IMG/VR virus record: IMGVR_UViG_3300048032_000246
Location: 1-31,033 of that record
DNA: 31,033 bases
DNA from: a virus
Reading direction: 5' to 3' (one strand)
The notes beneath the pieces were generated by a model. The model saw nothing but the letters and a program-made list of their open reading frames with translations. It ran no database searches and was not told the DNA's origin. Shown one piece after another: positions 12,834 to 31,033 of this stretch. Position numbers and translations under genes: made by a program. The first letter of the stretch is position 1. Each line of letters starts with the position of its first letter.

Positions 12834-13151
12834 TTATTTTTTCTTCCCTTTTCCAGCCCTGATCTTAGCTGCCTCCTTCTTACCGAAGTCACTCTTCACT
12901 CTTGCCATCGCCCAAGCGTGTTGAGACACTTTAGGTCTGTTTCCTGAAGACATGTAAGCAGCTAAGCCGCGCTTATAAACTTGTTTCTGCACAGCGCTAA
13001 GGCCAGCCATGCCGCCCTTCTTGTACATCTTCATCTTGCCCCCCATCTTAAATACCTTTCGGCCTTTCAAAATGTCAGCTTGAGTGACCTTACCATCACC
13101 AGTCAGGTCAGGGAACTTACCCCCTTTTTTGTATGCTTTTTTTGCTTTCAT
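12834..13151 (-). CDS. Small basic KGG-motif protein with one EF-hand-like loop
   Basis: This 105-aa Lys/Gly-rich protein carries YKKGG near residue 8, a 12-residue loop DLTGDGKVTQAD at residues 15-26, and MYKKGG near 42-48. The loop fits a canonical EF-hand/dockerin calcium loop, with Asp at positions 1, 5 and 12 and Thr at 3. A helical segment LSAVQKQVYKRGLAAYM and a very basic tail (RAGKGKKK) follow. The start overlaps the preceding small gene by 4 nt (ATGA). It closes a run of four coupled small basic genes. Such proteins are common in marine phage structural regions but uncharacterised. Binding to Ca2+ and nucleic acid is suggested by sequence only. Confidence 0.55.
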   Translation of the reverse strand: MKAKKAYKKGGKFPDLTGDGKVTQADILKGRKVFKMGGKMKMYKKGGMAGLSAVQKQVYKRGLAAYMSSGNRPKVSQHAWAMARVKSDFGKKEAAKIRAGKGKKK

Positions 13152-13294
13152 AACGAATCTCTTTGCTTCATAAGTTGATCTAAGTTCTTTGGGTATGGTT
13201 TACCCTTCTTATATATAGCTGCAATCCTTTTGATCAAAGCAGCACGACGCTTAGGGTCTTTACTCCCAGCTAAATATTTTTTGTTAATCTTCAT
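13148..13294 (-). CDS. 48-aa basic protein in the coupled small-gene cluster
   Basis: The frame starts with ATG at 13294 and stops with TGA at 13148-13150, giving 48 residues: MKINKKYLAGSKDPKRRAAL, then IKRIAAIYKKGKPYPKNLDQ, then LMKQRDSL. It has ATGA overlaps of 4 nt with both the upstream and downstream small genes, and it fills what would otherwise be the only gap in the cluster; this is the main evidence that it is real. It is helical and basic (about one third Lys/Arg). The function is unknown; RNA, DNA or capsid-interior binding are possibilities. Confidence 0.55.
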   Translation of the reverse strand: MKINKKYLAGSKDPKRRAALIKRIAAIYKKGKPYPKNLDQLMKQRDSL

Positions 13295-13482
13295 GACTTG
13301 GGGTGATTAGCCTGCTTAAACTTAGCCTGCTTTACAGCACCTGGATGAGGCGCGTAACCCCCCTTCATTAGATAGTACCTCCCCTGCTCCTCCATCCAGT
13401 GATAACCGCTTGGTGGGTCTACAGATACTTTTTTACTAGAGACAGAAAGCTTTCCGCCTTTATTTTTTTTGACAGCATTCAT
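13291..13482 (-). CDS. Small basic protein with KGG motif
   Basis: This 63-aa protein reads MNAVKKNKGGKLSVSSKKVS at the start and has a short aromatic core, PPSGYHWMEEQGRYYLMKGG (about residues 24-43), then a basic His/Lys/Ala tail. The pattern 'HWMEEQGRYYLMKGG' looks like a small folded unit of two strands. It overlaps both neighbours by 4 nt (ATGA). I do not recognise the family; the repeated KGG tripeptide links it to the other small basic proteins here and to the product at 29106-29582. Confidence 0.5.
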   Translation of the reverse strand: MNAVKKNKGGKLSVSSKKVSVDPPSGYHWMEEQGRYYLMKGGYAPHPGAVKQAKFKQANHPKS

Positions 13483-13799
13483 GAGTAGTTTCTACAGCGC
13501 CAGTTTCTAAGCGCAAGAAGCTTTCTTGTTGGCTTTTTTACTTTCTTACCAGTCTTTCTGTTTGTGACCATCTTGTAAAGAGGTCCCTTGTTTCCGCTCA
13601 TTCTGGCGCAGAAAGATTTTCTTCTTGCGGCTCTCTTACCCTTAGGGTTTGATTCCGTTACTGGCGCCTTTAATTTAGAACCAGTGGCCTTGTTATACTT
13701 TCTTCTTCCAGCAGCTGTAAGTCCACCAGATCGAGACTTGTGCTTACCCATCTTGAGACTTACGTTACCCCCTTTTTTATACTTTTTGCAGCATCGCAT
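13479..13799 (-). CDS. Small basic phage protein, DUF6321-like
   Basis: This 106-aa, strongly basic protein starts MRCCKKYKKGG and contains the core LTAAGRRKYNKATGSKLKAP (about residues 27-46), then NPKGKRAARRKSFCARMSGN (about 51-70) and a C-terminal NWRC segment. This series of motifs is shared by many marine podoviruses and cyanophages; I link it to DUF6321 from memory, so the number should be confirmed. Its function is not known, and basic charge and location suggest a virion-internal or nucleic-acid-contacting role. It leads the cluster of four coupled small genes. A TATCTTTG box ends exactly 4 nt before its ATG, which predicts a leaderless message. Confidence 0.65.
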   Translation of the reverse strand: MRCCKKYKKGGNVSLKMGKHKSRSGGLTAAGRRKYNKATGSKLKAPVTESNPKGKRAARRKSFCARMSGNKGPLYKMVTNRKTGKKVKKPTRKLLALRNWRCRNYS

Positions 13800-24110: not shown

Positions 24111-24187
24111 TGGTACACCAGACAGGATTCGAACCTGTGACCGTCTGCTTAGAAGGCAGATGCTCTATCCAACTGAGCTACTGGTGC
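24111..24187 (-). tRNA. tRNA-Arg (anticodon UCU), CCA encoded
   Basis: The minus strand folds as a full cloverleaf: 5' GCACCAG pairs with CTGGTGT (one G-U), the D-arm is TAGCTCAGTTGGATAGAGC-like, the anticodon loop is CTTCTAA with anticodon TCT, and the T-loop is GGTTCGAATCC. The 3' ACCA is encoded (24111-24114). It decodes AGA, a codon expected to be common in an AT-leaning phage. It lies 3 nt from the next tRNA, in the leader of the Zn-ribbon/terL transcript. Confidence 0.95.
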
Positions 24188-24190
24188 ATG

Positions 24191-24264
24191 TGCTCCCTCC
24201 AGGACTTGAACCTGGGACCTGCCGATTATGAGTCGGATGCTCTAACCAACTGAGCTAAGAGAGC
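24191..24264 (-). tRNA. tRNA with CAU anticodon (elongator Met or Ile2)
   Basis: The minus strand gives a 74-nt cloverleaf: 5' GCTCTCT pairs with AGGGAGC (one G-U), anticodon loop CTCATAA, T-loop GGTTCAAGTCC, discriminator A and no encoded CCA (the next bases are CAT). Position 1 is G paired to C72, so it is not an initiator tRNA. Met and lysidine-modified Ile(CAU) cannot be told apart here. Confidence 0.93.
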
Positions 24265-25759: not shown

Positions 25760-25767
25760 TAAATTTG
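25760..25767 (+). promoter_or_regulatory. -7 box TAAATTTG for the plus-strand winged-helix gene
   Basis: The plus strand shows TAAATTTG 24 nt upstream of the ATG at 25792. It interleaves with the oppositely oriented box at 25775-25782; both sit in the 36-bp divergent gap. No -33 TTTG is obvious. Confidence 0.5.
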
Positions 25768-25774
25768 TTTAAGT

Positions 25775-25782
25775 CAAATATA
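25775..25782 (-). promoter_or_regulatory. -7 box TATATTTG for the acidic gene at 25459-25755
   Basis: The minus strand shows TATATTTG 19 nt upstream of the ATG at 25755. It is 7 nt from the plus-strand TAAATTTG box, so the two promoters cannot both be filled by polymerase at once. Confidence 0.6.
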
Positions 25783-25791
25783 CGAATTAAT

Positions 25792-26208
25792 ATGCCTAGG
25801 TCTCAAATCAAGAAAACAAGGATGTTCAGGGACTTTTCAAAGATGCCCTCTAGGTTCGTCAAAAACAACTATTTAAAAAACCTCAAAAGCGCTACAGAAG
25901 AGTTTGTTGACGGAAGCGAGATTACAAAGAGCTACCTATACTTTATGTTGTTCGTTTACGAATTAGAGTTCTTTACTATATCCTGGGTAGCGGGAGAATA
26001 TGGAATGAATAAAAAGAACCTGGCTGACAGGATGATATATCCTTTAGTATCCTTGGGGTATTTGTATAAGCACTTCGATAAGCTAACACCGTCTCAAACC
26101 CTGGAGGATCACTTATTCCGAGACGAAACCAAGTTTAACTACCGTGTAAGATATGCGCTATCGCAGAAAGGCAGAATGGCGGTACAGCGTTTCTACAACT
26201 CACTTTAG
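25792..26208 (+). CDS. Winged-helix (MarR-like) DNA-binding protein
   Basis: This 138-aa protein is one of only two plus-strand genes. After a basic N-terminus (SQIKKTRMFRDF) and a helix (ITKSYLYFMLFVYELEFFT, about residues 44-62), ISWVAGEYGMNKKNLADRMI (63-82) reads as a helix-turn-recognition helix. PLVSLGYLYKHFD leads into a wing, closed by FNYRVRYALSQKGRMAVQRF (115-134), in which 'YALSQKGR' is the typical MarR/PadR wing-to-helix turn. I start at ATG 25792; the upstream TTG at 25765 overlaps the TAAATTTG box. It is likely a repressor or activator of the divergent promoter. Its 3' end overlaps the stop of the convergent gene by 4 nt. Confidence 0.65.
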   Translation: MPRSQIKKTRMFRDFSKMPSRFVKNNYLKNLKSATEEFVDGSEITKSYLYFMLFVYELEFFTISWVAGEYGMNKKNLADRMIYPLVSLGYLYKHFDKLTPSQTLEDHLFRDETKFNYRVRYALSQKGRMAVQRFYNSL

Positions 26209-27020
26209 AAGATTGAGTAGAAGATGTTAATGTCAGTTTCGATAGCTGTGCGGTTGCTGGATTGGTCGGACGGGTAAAAGATGATTTCTTGTATGTAGCC
26301 CAAATACCCAAATGTCGCACCTATGCCGAACCTTGTCAAATCCAAAGTTCCTGCGTTGCCTGTTGCTTCTATGGTGCCATTGACGGCTAATTTGCTACTT
26401 GTACCATCTCCAAGTCCGTAGTAAATAGACTGGTTTGGCGTAGAAGCCGACCCATAAACTTCAGTTCCGAATCTAATTATATTCTTCCCTCCATCTCTGT
26501 AATGCGAGCCAAGCCAAAAACCTTGACTTATATCCGCAATACCCGCTAATGCTGTATAATCATCATTCGACGCGACCGCTAAAAGTGTATAGGGTTGCGG
26601 AATTGTAGATGATGGCGTGCCGATAAGGTTCATTGAACTGCTTGTCCATTGCACCGCAGGTTTTCCGTTCTCCGTCACCACCCCCGTAGTCCCGTCGTAA
26701 ATCTTTGGCTGATTCGACGCCGTCGTTTGCGTGGCGTTATTAGAATTAGATGACTGGTCATACCAAACTGAAAGAAATCCATCTGATGATCCACAGTGCG
26801 TAGATATAGAAGAAGTATCTAACTCGCCACCAGAGAACCCGATATCTAGCTCTGCATTGTCGCTAGCCCTTCTCACTTTAACAGCATTCTTAGAATAAGA
26901 ATTAGATAGCTGCCTCAAAGAATAAGCAGCGGCTGCGCTTGAGTACGTATCAAGAAGTTTCGCAGCGGGTGCTGCGCCAACAAACCCACCTCTATTTACA
27001 GATGTACCTAGTCCTAACAT
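26205..27020 (-). CDS. Arabinofuranosidase-B/LamG-like adhesion protein
   Basis: This 271-aa protein begins MLGLGTSVNRGG. Residues about 22-105 match the repeated phrase of ArabFuran-catalytic/LamG-like proteins: AYSLRQLSNSYSKNAVKVRR, ASDNAELDIGFSGGELDTSS and VWYDQSSNSNNATQTT. The classic YDQSGNGN here is YDQSSNSN. The rest is a beta sandwich ending in a helix (NRTAIETDINIFYSIF). In phages this fold is used to bind host surface sugars, and no complete catalytic set is evident, so binding is more likely than hydrolysis. It shares its N-terminal MLGLG with the gene at 27241-27951, suggesting a shared virion docking peptide. It overlaps the plus-strand gene's end by 4 nt. Confidence 0.7.
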   Translation of the reverse strand: MLGLGTSVNRGGFVGAAPAAKLLDTYSSAAAAYSLRQLSNSYSKNAVKVRRASDNAELDIGFSGGELDTSSISTHCGSSDGFLSVWYDQSSNSNNATQTTASNQPKIYDGTTGVVTENGKPAVQWTSSSMNLIGTPSSTIPQPYTLLAVASNDDYTALAGIADISQGFWLGSHYRDGGKNIIRFGTEVYGSASTPNQSIYYGLGDGTSSKLAVNGTIEATGNAGTLDLTRFGIGATFGYLGYIQEIIFYPSDQSSNRTAIETDINIFYSIF

Positions 27021-27241
27021 TATGCTTCTGGTTCAGGTGGTAAAAATCCGTCGGGAAGTGTATTTACTGTAGTGTAGCTCACAGATTCATCGTCTTGAAA
27101 ACACAAAGCAGACTGATCGGCATCTCTGTCGTCAACGATCCACCCCCACCAGTATTTAGTTACAGGACCGCAGCCTTTCTCTATGGCTTTGTCGCGGCTG
27201 ATCTGCTCTGCATTTGATGTAGTAGTAATATAATACTTCAT
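27020..27241 (-). CDS. Small hypothetical protein between two adhesin genes
   Basis: This 73-aa protein (MKYYITTTSNAEQISRDKAI...) has a Trp-rich core KYWWGWIVDDRDADQSALCF (residues 29-48) and a Pro/Glu tail. It overlaps or abuts both flanking genes by 1 nt, so all three are coupled. No family is recognised. A small gene placed between two receptor-type proteins may be an assembly chaperone or a virion part, but this is inference. Confidence 0.5.
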   Translation of the reverse strand: MKYYITTTSNAEQISRDKAIEKGCGPVTKYWWGWIVDDRDADQSALCFQDDESVSYTTVNTLPDGFLPPEPEA

Positions 27242-27951
27242 TAGATGTAATGATTTCGAACCATCAAAAGGTGTCTAGCCGTTTGTGTGTCGTTTCGGGT
27301 GACAAAAATGCCGCCATTGGTTTGATGATAAACATACTGATTATCTTTAGTATAGGTGCCATACCAAAGTTCCCCTCCATAATTTCGAATACTGTCATCA
27401 ACAAAGGGTGTGTAGCTATTAGTATACGAGTTTTCGTAATCGTGGTAGTGCGCCGCAACAACATATTCCGCTGCATCCGCTAAACGCCAGTCGCTATAAC
27501 CAGCATAGCTGAAGCCATTGACATAGGTAGCGGCCTCAGAAATAGTCCTAGACACCTGATCGTTATATGCGTCTTGCACGTACCAGCCCAACCCAGTCAG
27601 GTGATCAATACAGTATCTGTCGTTGCTGCTGTTATTGCTGGCGCTTTCTTGAAAGCCCTCGGTAAACTGTTCGCCTACGTCGTTGGTAAATCTAAATTTG
27701 TTTCCAAAAGCGTTGTTTGCAGACAGTAAAGAATTGCTGTCTGATCCCTCATAATCGTTTGCGAGCATTGCTACTGTGGCGGCCAAAACAGGAGGCGTGT
27801 AATTGTAAGTGCCTTGAGACCTATGCCAGGTGACCAAATAGTCAACACCTGAGTCGTTTTGATCCCAGGGTAGAACTCGCTGATAATGTATTCCAAAAGC
27901 CACTTCTATAGGGTTGTTGTTTGTTTGTAAAGATATTCCCAAGCCAAGCAT
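27241..27951 (-). CDS. DUF1566 (C-type-lectin-like) receptor-binding protein
   Basis: This 236-aa protein starts MLGLGISLQTNN. The DUF1566/Lcl signature is clear: CIDHLTGLGWYVQDAY (residues 114-129, 'TGLxW'), YAGYSDWRLADAAEYV (149-164, 'GysDWRLPtxxEL' with Ala in place of Pro) and the C-terminal GELWYGT (193-199) to ARHLLMVRN (225-233). This C-type-lectin-like fold is used in phage receptor-binding proteins and is one of the folds diversified by retroelements at the C-terminal end; no reverse transcriptase is in this window. A TATCTTTG box ends 4 nt before the ATG. It heads a coupled set with the MLGLG partner at 26205-27020. Confidence 0.7.
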   Translation of the reverse strand: MLGLGISLQTNNNPIEVAFGIHYQRVLPWDQNDSGVDYLVTWHRSQGTYNYTPPVLAATVAMLANDYEGSDSNSLLSANNAFGNKFRFTNDVGEQFTEGFQESASNNSSNDRYCIDHLTGLGWYVQDAYNDQVSRTISEAATYVNGFSYAGYSDWRLADAAEYVVAAHYHDYENSYTNSYTPFVDDSIRNYGGELWYGTYTKDNQYVYHQTNGGIFVTRNDTQTARHLLMVRNHYI

Positions 27952-27969: not shown

Positions 27970-28104
27970 TTATCTTCCTTGCCCTTTGTACGCTTTTTTG
28001 TAGTTTTTACTACGCTTATTACTTGATGTCTTTGTCTTAGCGTGCACTCCTGGTCGAGAAACTTTGTTTTCCTCAGGTGCGAAATTGTTTAATTGCTTTG
28101 CCAT
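27970..28104 (-). CDS. 44-aa basic protein (SRPGVHAKTKTS type)
   Basis: The frame starts at ATG 28104 and ends at TAA 27970. It encodes MAKQLNNFAPEENKVSRPGV, then HAKTKTSSNKRSKNYKKAYK and GQGR. I recall similar 'GVHAKTKxSxxKxSKNYKKxYxGQG' peptides in phages of Bacteroidetes, where their role is unknown. It overlaps the endolysin stop by 1 nt (TAATG), and no other gene fills this space. The strong basic charge (about one quarter Lys/Arg) suggests contact with nucleic acid or the phage interior. Confidence 0.6.
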   Translation of the reverse strand: MAKQLNNFAPEENKVSRPGVHAKTKTSSNKRSKNYKKAYKGQGR

Positions 28105-28565
28105 TAGATTACTCTATAATAGGTTCCTTTTTCGTCTCTGTAAGCTCGCTTGATCTGATTCCTGTTCTTCCCTGACTCTTTATAAGAGACATGAACCCAG
28201 GCAGGGTTTTCGTCATCGCCGAACTCCCATATCATCTGATCCCACTCTAAGTTCTTCTTTATGAAGTCAAATATTTCTGAGTTAGTGACCTTCCCGTATA
28301 TATCGGCGTCTATATCAATAGCTTCCCCAATCATATGTTGAGAGTACTTACTACCCCCGATAGCCTTGTTTAATTTTTTTGATCGAAAACCAGAGGTAAC
28401 CCCGATAGGTACACCGAAGTGATCACGAACTGGCTGGAAGATATGGTCCGCTACAGCCTGTAGGTTGTGTATCGCCCACTGATCAGGGGTGTTGTCTATC
28501 CCCTTTCGGGTCGCGGTGTTTGATTTCACCACCTCCTTTAGTGTAAGGTTTTTGCTTAATTTCAT
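28104..28565 (-). CDS. Peptidoglycan endopeptidase, M15A family (endolysin)
   Basis: This 153-aa protein is a D-Ala-D-Ala-type or L,D-cleaving M15 peptidase of the phage endolysin group. The motifs are in order: TSGFRSKKLN (residues 57-66), SQHMIGEAIDID (75-86; H77 and D84 as zinc ligands), the acidic WDQMIWEFG with E114 as likely general base, and WVHVSY (123-128; H125 as third zinc ligand). There is no signal peptide, so it depends on a holin not seen here. The upstream TAACTTTG box gives a leader of about 80 nt. It is probably used for lysis at the end of infection; a virion-entry role is less likely. Confidence 0.85.
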   Translation of the reverse strand: MKLSKNLTLKEVVKSNTATRKGIDNTPDQWAIHNLQAVADHIFQPVRDHFGVPIGVTSGFRSKKLNKAIGGSKYSQHMIGEAIDIDADIYGKVTNSEIFDFIKKNLEWDQMIWEFGDDENPAWVHVSYKESGKNRNQIKRAYRDEKGTYYRVI

Positions 28566-28646
28566 TTTTCTGAGCCACCCAAGACGGGTTGATTCTTTTG
28601 ATTCGAGGGTTGTGATAATATTTCTTCAATCTATGATTGAATATAG

Positions 28647-28663: not shown

Positions 28664-28695
28664 TTTGTGAGATCGAAAAGTTTACCTTACCTTGA
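28664..28695 (+). promoter_or_regulatory. Candidate promoter for the plus-strand secreted protein
   Basis: The plus strand shows TTTG (28664-28667), a 20-nt spacer, then TACCTTGA (28688-28695). The second box is an imperfect TAnnTTTG. The ATG at 28742 is 46 nt further on. It is the best candidate for independent expression of this gene. Confidence 0.35.
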
Positions 28696-28741
28696 GATCA
28701 GCAAACCGAATTTACGAAACAATTTAAAACAGTTATTTGCT

Positions 28742-29140
28742 ATGAAGAATCTTATTTTAATCCTTGCTCTTGCAGTTTCGAGCTTAGTATCTGCACAGAA
28801 CGTTCCTTTTACGATTGTCAACGATGTTGATACCGACATGGTTTTCTTTGACATCCTTACAATTGATCCGTCCACTGGTGAAGTAAACAAAATTGCACGG
28901 CACCGACAAGCGTTTAATGGTACTCACAATACTAACCTAGATTTCAGGAATGGACAAATTCTTATTATTCAGAAAAGAACACACCCTGAGCGACAATTAT
29001 TAGATGAGTTTTCTGCAAGTGTTCAACACGGCAACGAAAACAAACTGTCCATTATCGAGCAGCCCAAATCATTTAGGGTAGTCGAAGGCATGGACCTAGG
29101 TCGGGCTATCTCGGCCTTCTATAATCAGCCAATCCACTAA
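28742..29140 (+). CDS. Secreted or periplasmic protein with signal peptide, function unknown (moron-like)
   Basis: This 132-aa protein starts MKNLILILALAVSSLVSAQN: a short basic N-region, a hydrophobic core of about 13 residues and an SA-Q cleavage site near residue 18-19, as in flavobacterial exported proteins. No lipobox Cys is present, so it is soluble or exported. The mature part is beta-rich (VPFTIVNDVDTDMVFFDILT, LDFRNGQILIIQKRTHPERQ) with no known domain. I use ATG 28742, since the frame open from the TTG at 28637 would bury the signal peptide. It is opposite to all neighbours, and its 3' end overlaps the convergent gene by 35 nt. Superinfection exclusion, receptor masking or a lysis role are possible but unproven. 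Confidence 0.6.
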   Translation: MKNLILILALAVSSLVSAQNVPFTIVNDVDTDMVFFDILTIDPSTGEVNKIARHRQAFNGTHNTNLDFRNGQILIIQKRTHPERQLLDEFSASVQHGNENKLSIIEQPKSFRVVEGMDLGRAISAFYNQPIH

Positions 29141-29582
29141 GGAGCTTTTTGGCTCTGTCTTCTCTGGATCGCCCCTCCATTCCCTCAGTTCCGCCCTGAG
29201 TAGAATTTAATTCACCCTCTCCCATTGATGTTCGACCAGTAGATGCGCCGCTAGAACGTGTCATTCCTGGTTTATATCCTGGGGCCTTCATCTGAGAGAG
29301 AATCATGTCTACATTCTGAGAGTCCCCGTATTTTCCTTTAGCGGTTTGGGAAAACCATTCTTGAAACTCTTCTTTTGGCCCCATATTAGAGGCATAGTAA
29401 TTAATGGCTTCTTGGTTAGTTACAGGTCTTCCGTCGGCCATAAAAACAACTTCTTGGCCTCCGTCTTGATTTTCCCTCAAGATAAAAGTAAGCTCAGGAT
29501 CAACCTTTCCTCCTTCTGCATACTTCTTTACCATGTCGTAAAGAGCTGCCTTACCTCCCTTCATATACTTTTTAGTCTTCAT
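29106..29582 (-). CDS. Structural-region protein with KGG motifs, function unknown
   Basis: This 158-aa protein starts MKTKKYMKGGKAALYDMVKK and YAEGGKVDPELTF, so two K/E-GG turns lie in the first 26 residues. The middle (FILRENQDGGQEVVFMADGR, about 33-52) looks like a strand pair, and the end (from about residue 105) is Ser/Gly/Thr-rich and probably disordered, then RSREDRAKKLLSGLADYRRP. The KGG phrase is shared with three small proteins at 12834-13799. No enzyme motif is seen. It overlaps the plus-strand secreted gene's 3' end by 35 nt. It is probably a minor virion protein. Confidence 0.55.
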   Translation of the reverse strand: MKTKKYMKGGKAALYDMVKKYAEGGKVDPELTFILRENQDGGQEVVFMADGRPVTNQEAINYYASNMGPKEEFQEWFSQTAKGKYGDSQNVDMILSQMKAPGYKPGMTRSSGASTGRTSMGEGELNSTQGGTEGMEGRSREDRAKKLLSGLADYRRPR

Positions 29583-30083: not shown

Positions 30084-30311
30084 TTATTTCTTTTTCTTGA
30101 GTCGGGACTTCTCTCGCCTACCACGATTCTTGCTCTCTGCCTCAAACCCTACGATCTTACCACCCTTATGGGAGGCATCAAGGCTGTCCCCATTCCCATA
30201 GGTTCCTTTCTCTCGGTTGTACTGGTTTAGCTCAGCCCGTTTCTTCTTTGCTCTGCCGCCAGATCCAAACTTCTTGTACTCCTCTTTGTAGTTACGCTTC
30301 TTAACTCTCAT
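30084..30311 (-). CDS. Small basic HNH-like protein
   Basis: This 75-aa, very basic protein starts MRVKKRNYKEEYKKFGSGGR. It contains NGDSLDASHKGGK (about residues 40-52), with a D-x-x-H step like the 'DVxHKD' of short HNH-like proteins in marine podoviruses, then ESKNRGRREKSRLKKKK. Compared with full HNH nucleases it lacks a clear second Asn/His pair, and no Cys knuckle is present, so catalysis is doubtful. It is the rightmost coding gene and the first of the late units. A TATATTTG box lies 4 nt before its ATG and the non-coding hairpin field begins just upstream. Confidence 0.6.
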   Translation of the reverse strand: MRVKKRNYKEEYKKFGSGGRAKKKRAELNQYNREKGTYGNGDSLDASHKGGKIVGFEAESKNRGRREKSRLKKKK

Positions 30312-30315
30312 ACTG

Positions 30316-30323
30316 CAAATATA
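30316..30323 (-). promoter_or_regulatory. -7 box TATATTTG, 4 nt from the ATG
   Basis: The minus strand shows TATATTTG, then CAGT, then the ATG at 30311. It is the rightmost promoter-like box for the leftward late genes; no -33 TTTG is visible at the usual distance. Confidence 0.6.
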
Positions 30324-30369
30324 ATGAAGACAGTTTTTGCGCCTTTACAACTTAATTAGTTTGATTGAC

Positions 30370-31033
30370 GCTCCGTAGCTACTGTTTTATTACTTACATA
30401 AGTAATCCTAAAGACAGCTTCGTAGGTTTAAAACATCTATGAAGCTTTATCGCTGAATAGCTTTGGCGAAGTTACAACTTTTTTCTTACAAAGTCAAGTC
30501 AGCAATATACTTTAAGTAAACCCTATAAGTCTCTAAGCGACAGCCTCTTAACCCGTATATAGTGGTGGCGCGTTGATAACTTAGTTAATAACACACCGCA
30601 AGAAGCGGCGAAAAAAGATGATCGCCAAAAAAATCCTGTGTAATACAGAGTTTGGGGATTATATATATTATACACTGCTTGGAACTACGTTCCAAAGTCA
30701 CTTTTCTCGACCCCCTCCCTCAGAATCTCTTGAGATTCTGGCATACATTTCAGCTTTTAGTACCAGAGGTTAACCCTCTGTTACTAAGGAGGTTAGCCAC
30801 GATTGATTCTCAATCGACAGAGAGTACAGCAGGTAAACTGCTGAGAGTCAAGTCGGGACAATCCCCCACCTCGACTAAGAGTCGAACTATTAACCTTCAT
30901 GAATGAAGGTTCACTAATACTTCAAGAAGTATTAAGCAACCCTTTGAAAGCCAGCTGTTTCCCAACGCGCTGAATCCCTTAAGGGATCGTTGTTGGCAGT
31001 CAAGGCATGAGTATCAACTTGTTGATACCGTAG
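30370..31033. ncRNA. Candidate structured non-coding element: field of perfect short hairpins
   Basis: This stretch of more than 650 nt lacks a credible gene but contains at least ten hairpins, most with perfect stems: 30389-30406 (8 bp, enclosed by a 7-bp stem 382-388/411-417), 30679-30695 (7), 30721-30740 (9), 30755-30789 (6+8 around one mismatch), 30800-30816 (7), 30827-30843 (6), 30855-30865 (4), 30871-30885 (6), 30892-30911 (9), 30915-30934 (9), 30974-30987 (5, TTAA loop) and 31011-31028 (8). Loops are mostly 2-5 nt, and two form CUUG on the plus strand. The stem sequences differ from each other, so structure rather than sequence is repeated. It may be a large phage RNA of the GOLLD/ROOL kind, or a DNA element. 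The strand is undecided and the right end is outside the window. Confidence 0.4.

Follow-up and report, generated by a model that had tools for sequence, protein, structure and literature searches.

Within the window, which is the whole 31,033-nt virus record IMGVR_UViG_3300048032_000246, a plus-strand open reading frame (ORF) at 28742-29140 encodes a predicted exported protein of 132 amino acids (aa) next to the endolysin gene. This ORF is part of a cassette with two new features: its constant part includes the signal-peptide codons, such that different exported domains are swapped behind one platform, and the exchange takes along the tail of the convergent gene. A limited literature search found no description of such a cassette, although one may have been missed. 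Across related phages, the cassette carries one of at least six cargos that appear unrelated in sequence, and we give about even chances to the reading that these cargos are exported accessory effectors serving superinfection exclusion or envelope protection.

A constant front end and its cargos

The ORF is open, starts MKNLILILALAVSSLVSAQ, and encodes a signal peptide, MKNLILILALAVSSLVSA, followed by Gln at +1. It is divergent from the M15 endolysin gene and convergent with the minus-strand gene at 29106-29582, which it overlaps by 35 bp. The signal peptide, the place beside the endolysin, and the 35-bp overlap had been described in a first-pass annotation of this DNA. That annotation also had the ORF encoded against all of its neighbors, which is true of the flanking genes but not of a second plus-strand gene at 25765-26208. 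(This second gene, a 147-aa frame with GTG/ATG/TTG as candidate start codons, has no family match and has a relative in 81/81 endolysin loci compared.) The conserved unit is larger than the ORF, with its start at 28625, where a dyad lies; the block that is exchanged extends to ~29490. The features of the locus are the following:

28104-28565, minus strand: M15 peptidase endolysin, the constant neighbor (PF08291 in Pfam, E 4.2e-20; phrog_894 endolysin in PHROGs, E 5.3e-40)
28625-28641, no strand assigned: 17-bp dyad TTCAATC-N3-GATTGAA, candidate operator, at the upstream cassette edge
28664-28695, plus strand: putative promoter TTTG-N20-TACCTTGA
28696-28741, plus strand: putative mRNA leader of ~46 nt, nearly invariant, up to the ATG (alignment of 11 distinct leaders)
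28742-28795, plus strand: predicted signal peptide, residues 1-18, with Gln at +1 (judged by sequence; residues 1-19 are identical in A and B cargos)
28796-29140, plus strand: mature exported domain (cargo type A), including the stop codon (beta sandwich model)
29106-29582, minus strand: convergent KGG-motif gene, with a C-terminal part (~29106-29490) exchanged with the cargo and conserved N-terminal codons (~29490-29582), as judged from the mosaic profile, partner types, and blastn blocks

A protein search with the window product returned three contigs of the same family and six that share residues 1-19 only; in the latter, the upstream DNA is nearly identical and the mature domain is different. 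The leader DNA and the endolysin, used as further queries, enlarged this set, and a final scan for TTTG-N20-TAnnTTGAGATCAGC matched 50 contigs, 43 of which have the cassette (the other 7, with neither endolysin nor cargo, were discarded as chance matches). The cassette set consists of these 43 IMG/VR contigs plus the window, 44 records in all, whose cargos fall by our count into families A (4 records), B (8), C (14), D (9), E (4), F (4), and G (1). Cargos are exported domains of ~90-130 aa or, in family D, a membrane peptide of 58-68 aa with one hydrophobic segment. Profile comparisons, which covered a subset of the family pairs (A-B, A-C, B-C, B-F, and A-F), gave no support to a common ancestry of all cargos; families A and E (27.7% identity over 101 aa, E 0.04) are probably distant relatives.

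All cargos outside family D begin with a signal peptide and have Gln directly after its cleavage site (families A, B, C, E, F, and G; 35/44 records, assigned by sequence only), in keeping with the Q-rule for substrates of signal peptidase I in Bacteroidota (PMC5837995, PMC10653852). Because of the signal peptide and this Gln, the cargo is expected to reach the periplasm via the host Sec/signal peptidase I route, which would make it, like superinfection-exclusion proteins, a small phage product delivered to the envelope. There is no Cys near the cleavage site of the window protein (SLVSAQNVPF), and a lipobox of the Llp/Cor type is absent.

The mature domains are conserved as proteins and are under purifying selection. 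The ratio of nonsynonymous to synonymous substitution rates (dN/dS) is 0.15 for the mature domain of the window protein against that of its family member L058, lies mostly at 0.08-0.2 in unsaturated within-family pairs, and rises to 0.4 between distant members of family C. The window protein has no match in Pfam, PHROGs, NCBIfam, PADLOC, PDB sequences, or phage records, which bears out the earlier statement that its mature domain is not recognized, and its frame is unbroken in every relative found. Structure prediction and structure-based searching, as the annotation had proposed for residues 20-132, yielded a beta sandwich with no significant relative. Models were built for cargos A and C: AlphaFold2 predicts an eight-strand beta protein, a beta sandwich, for residues 20-132 of A (6 sequences; predicted local distance difference test [pLDDT] 78.5, predicted template modeling score [pTM] 0.75) and a beta sandwich plus a helix for C (9 sequences; pLDDT 84.8, pTM 0.81). 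Foldseek returned no match at E < 0.001 for A against PDB and BFVD or for C against PDB; the best E values for the window protein were 0.04 (PDB) and 0.015 (BFVD), and most of the weak matches involve beta-sandwich domains (C2, transthyretin, pilin).

Upstream of the ORF, the control region recurs as a unit. The dyad is present in one copy per record in 17/17 cassette-bearing records and in 0/7 cassette-less ones, and it may be an operator, as its invariant arms and varying 3-nt loop suggest. Exactly one cassette promoter was found in each of the 17 cassette-bearing records scanned and none in the 7 cassette-less records. Both of its boxes (TTTG and TAnnTTGA) and the 20-nt spacer length are kept in all 17, and the fixed length of a spacer whose sequence diverges argues that the match is a real promoter and not chance, as had been proposed for the window. 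This promoter appears to be independent of the minus-strand operon. The leader is almost unchanged in most records, and in every locus 175-176 nt separate the cargo ATG from the endolysin start. A stable RNA fold in the leader was rejected, its energy being no better than that of shuffled sequences; an A-U/G-C exchange, judged by eye only, is seen in the leader alignment at one stem pair adjacent to the ATG. A search for the leader sequence in bacterial genomes found none. Next to the dyad, a 48-codon minus-strand ORF (28483-28629) overlaps the endolysin start in another frame. Its first part, NPRIKRINP, resembles a peptide (MGSKNYFNPRLKRINP) read in loci that lack the cassette, so this ORF may be a genuine small gene that starts inside the dyad.

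Presence, absence, and exchange

We retrieved 80 endolysin loci, of which 75 extend far enough upstream; the cassette is present in 36 and absent from 39 of these, presence or absence as a cassette being what the annotation had proposed to check. Where the cassette is missing, the minus-strand gene that comes next has its end, in many cases, ~70 nt upstream of the endolysin start. Mapped on the endolysin tree, the cargo states imply a minimum of 21 changes, and presence or absence of the cassette a minimum of 11, counts that are valid for this tree alone, as the endolysin may itself recombine. The locus resembles a phage accessory-gene hotspot in that it is a fixed site, flanked by conserved genes, whose content can be exchanged or dispensed with.

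The boundaries of the exchange are visible in pairwise comparisons. The window and L022 are identical at ~28,690-29,540, with flanks that are clearly more diverged. Against B-type contigs, the window is 100% identical through the signal-peptide codons (to ~28,790), followed by 700 bp of unrelated sequence, and identity of 90-92% resumes at ~29,490, in the N-terminal codons of the convergent gene. The same step separates the window from L045, although both belong to family A: synonymous divergence (dS) is 0.08 in the signal peptide and saturated in the mature domain. Because similarity breaks at the signal peptide and resumes at the N terminus of the convergent gene, the exchanged block consists of the cargo plus the C-terminal part of that gene. 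Assembly chimeras are an unlikely source of these junctions, since the same ones recur in contigs from different samples. The type of the convergent partner tracks the cargo type in most cases; the pairing is not strict, as related partners in L112, L091, and L106 adjoin different cargos (C, D, and D, respectively).

A second variable site lies on the other side of the endolysin (26205-27951, minus strand), where proteins starting with MLGLG have different C-terminal parts, including one Lcl_C-like and one arabinofuranosidase-like match.

Possible functions of the cargos

The first-pass annotation had suggested that isolated exported proteins of this kind often alter the host surface or exclude a second phage, and such a role would be fitting for the cargos. 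The terminase of the window shares 39% identity with those of elemo-group Flavobacterium phages and 45% with that of a Manatee Spring podovirus; Cellulophaga phages are also among the matches. The cassette would belong to virulent-looking, flavobacteria-type podoviruses. Its own promoter, with the upstream dyad and separate from the minus-strand operon, would yield an mRNA with a fixed leader, and the product would pass into the periplasm. There, the mature part, one of several seemingly unrelated small domains (or, in some phages, a membrane-anchored peptide), would act in the envelope of the infected cell against a second phage. The mosaic comparison shows that cargos are swapped by homologous recombination, which takes place in the constant DNA of the leader and signal peptide at one end and in the conserved N-terminal codons of the convergent gene at the other. 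Cargo diversity may follow that of rivals, receptors, or entry proteins.

We favor exclusion because known small exported phage proteins of similar profile (Spackle, Llp, and Ltp) exclude superinfection: the cargos are predicted to be exported, are controlled independently, can be dispensed with, and are rapidly exchanged although unrelated, and there is no trace of lysogeny. With respect to lysogeny, no tyrosine or serine recombinase or integrase was found in eight records of 42-78 kb, although this is weak evidence, the records being partial. Several observations weigh against exclusion. No sequence match or significant fold match to a known exclusion protein was found in Pfam, PHROGs, NCBIfam, PDB, or Foldseek searches; as such, the cargo would at best work like an exclusion protein, with no homology to a named family found. 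Cargo type shows no clear link, by eye, to the adhesin-like MLGLG genes downstream of the endolysin. In addition, the promoter box TAnnTTGA is apparently not that of sigma-A, for which the box in Flavobacterium psychrophilum is TAnnTTTG, and resembles, except for the final base, the alternative F. psychrophilum motif SM5, TAnnTTGY (PMC9723704).

Ranked second is an envelope-side role in counter-defense or host takeover, which we consider unlikely; here, cargos would inhibit host envelope proteins (defense components, proteases, or enzymes of the wall or lipopolysaccharide) to the benefit of the infecting phage itself. Export, an independent promoter, and the rapid swapping of unrelated cargos would suit an arms race with the host, but about half of the related loci dispense with the cassette, and the cargos have no PADLOC match to known defense-related proteins (8 representatives searched). 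One F cargo matched the immunity protein BSAP-5i (E 0.0037); we treat this as chance because E falls to 0.13 without the signal peptide and the match is absent in two other members of F.

Third, and somewhat less probable, the cargo could be a regulator of lysis timing that either resembles a periplasmic antiholin or RI or inhibits the endolysin, under the control of the region between endolysin and cargo. Such a role would account for the constant arrangement, in which the two genes always diverge, stand a fixed distance apart, and have the dyad between them; it sits poorly with cargos that are unrelated while the endolysin is often >90% identical, and with the 39/75 loci that do without the cassette. 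Slightly more doubtful still is the view of the constant promoter, leader, and signal peptide as an "export port" platform at which each recombination event swaps two C-terminal domains, tail to tail. In its strongest form, the exported domain and the C-terminal domain of its partner would be matched to each other, as an exclusion factor might be to the virion protein that it recognizes; the related partners that adjoin C and D cargos in L112, L091, and L106 speak against strict matching. A spanin or virion component, as might be supposed of a small exported protein adjoining the endolysin, can be dismissed with near certainty, given its absence from about half of the loci, a window protein with neither lipobox nor C-terminal membrane segment, a gene running opposite to the structural operon, and the lack of any match in Pfam, PHROGs (neither of which yielded a spanin or virion protein, the kind of identity that the annotation had said would count against its proposal), NCBIfam, or PDB sequences.

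Returning to exclusion as the preferred reading, were it true, the locus would offer a ready-made set of small, exported, unrelated proteins that serve as exclusion factors for Bacteroidota. The cassette shows a route by which a phage can diversify an exported protein, namely, recombination within signal-peptide codons, and its DNA signature (dyad, TTTG-N20-TAnnTTGA, and leader) lets exported effectors be collected from a phage group that is environmental, widespread, and little studied.

Other features of the window and known systems

Many small minus-strand proteins of the window (in 12834-13799, 29106-29582, and 30084-30311) have a common KKYxKGGK-like motif near the N terminus, some of them together with LTGDGKVTxADILKG, which resembles a calcium-binding EF-hand/dockerin loop. 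Adjacent tRNA-Arg(tct) and tRNA-Met(cat) genes lie upstream of the terminase gene (24111-24264, minus strand). The region 30315-31033 has no convincing gene and many short perfect hairpins (e.g., AACCTTCATGAATGAAGGTT, AATACTTCAAGAAGTATT, and GAATCTCTTGAGATTC); it is conserved at 94-96% in L016 and L022 and has no Rfam match.

Among known systems, T4 Spackle (gp61.3) is a small, single-domain, periplasmic superinfection-exclusion protein that a virulent phage exports by a signal peptide (PMC7677548). The cassette cargo is likewise small, single-domain, and signal-peptide-bearing, in a virulent-looking phage; in contrast, Spackle forms a helical bundle, is expressed early, and is conserved, whereas the window cargo is modeled as all-beta, cargos are exchanged, and no homology was found. 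T5 Llp and Cor are small exported exclusion lipoproteins that act at the envelope, are encoded at one locus, and are non-essential for the phage (PMC9586334). The cargo is also a small, dispensable, exported phage protein at one locus, but it has no lipobox and adjoins the endolysin, whereas Llp lies beside the gene for the receptor-binding protein. Modularity is shared with Ltp of Streptococcus thermophilus phages, in which an export/anchor part is joined to an active domain that causes exclusion (PMC3952083); Ltp, however, is lipid-anchored, occurs in temperate phages of Gram-positive hosts, and has one domain family. Finally, phage accessory hotspots of the P2/P4 type are fixed loci between conserved genes with exchangeable cargo (PMC9122126), as is the cassette locus. 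Those hotspots reside in temperate phages and satellites and carry intracellular defense systems, whereas the cassette, with no integrase found and no PADLOC defense match, consists of one small exported ORF behind a shared promoter, leader, and signal peptide.
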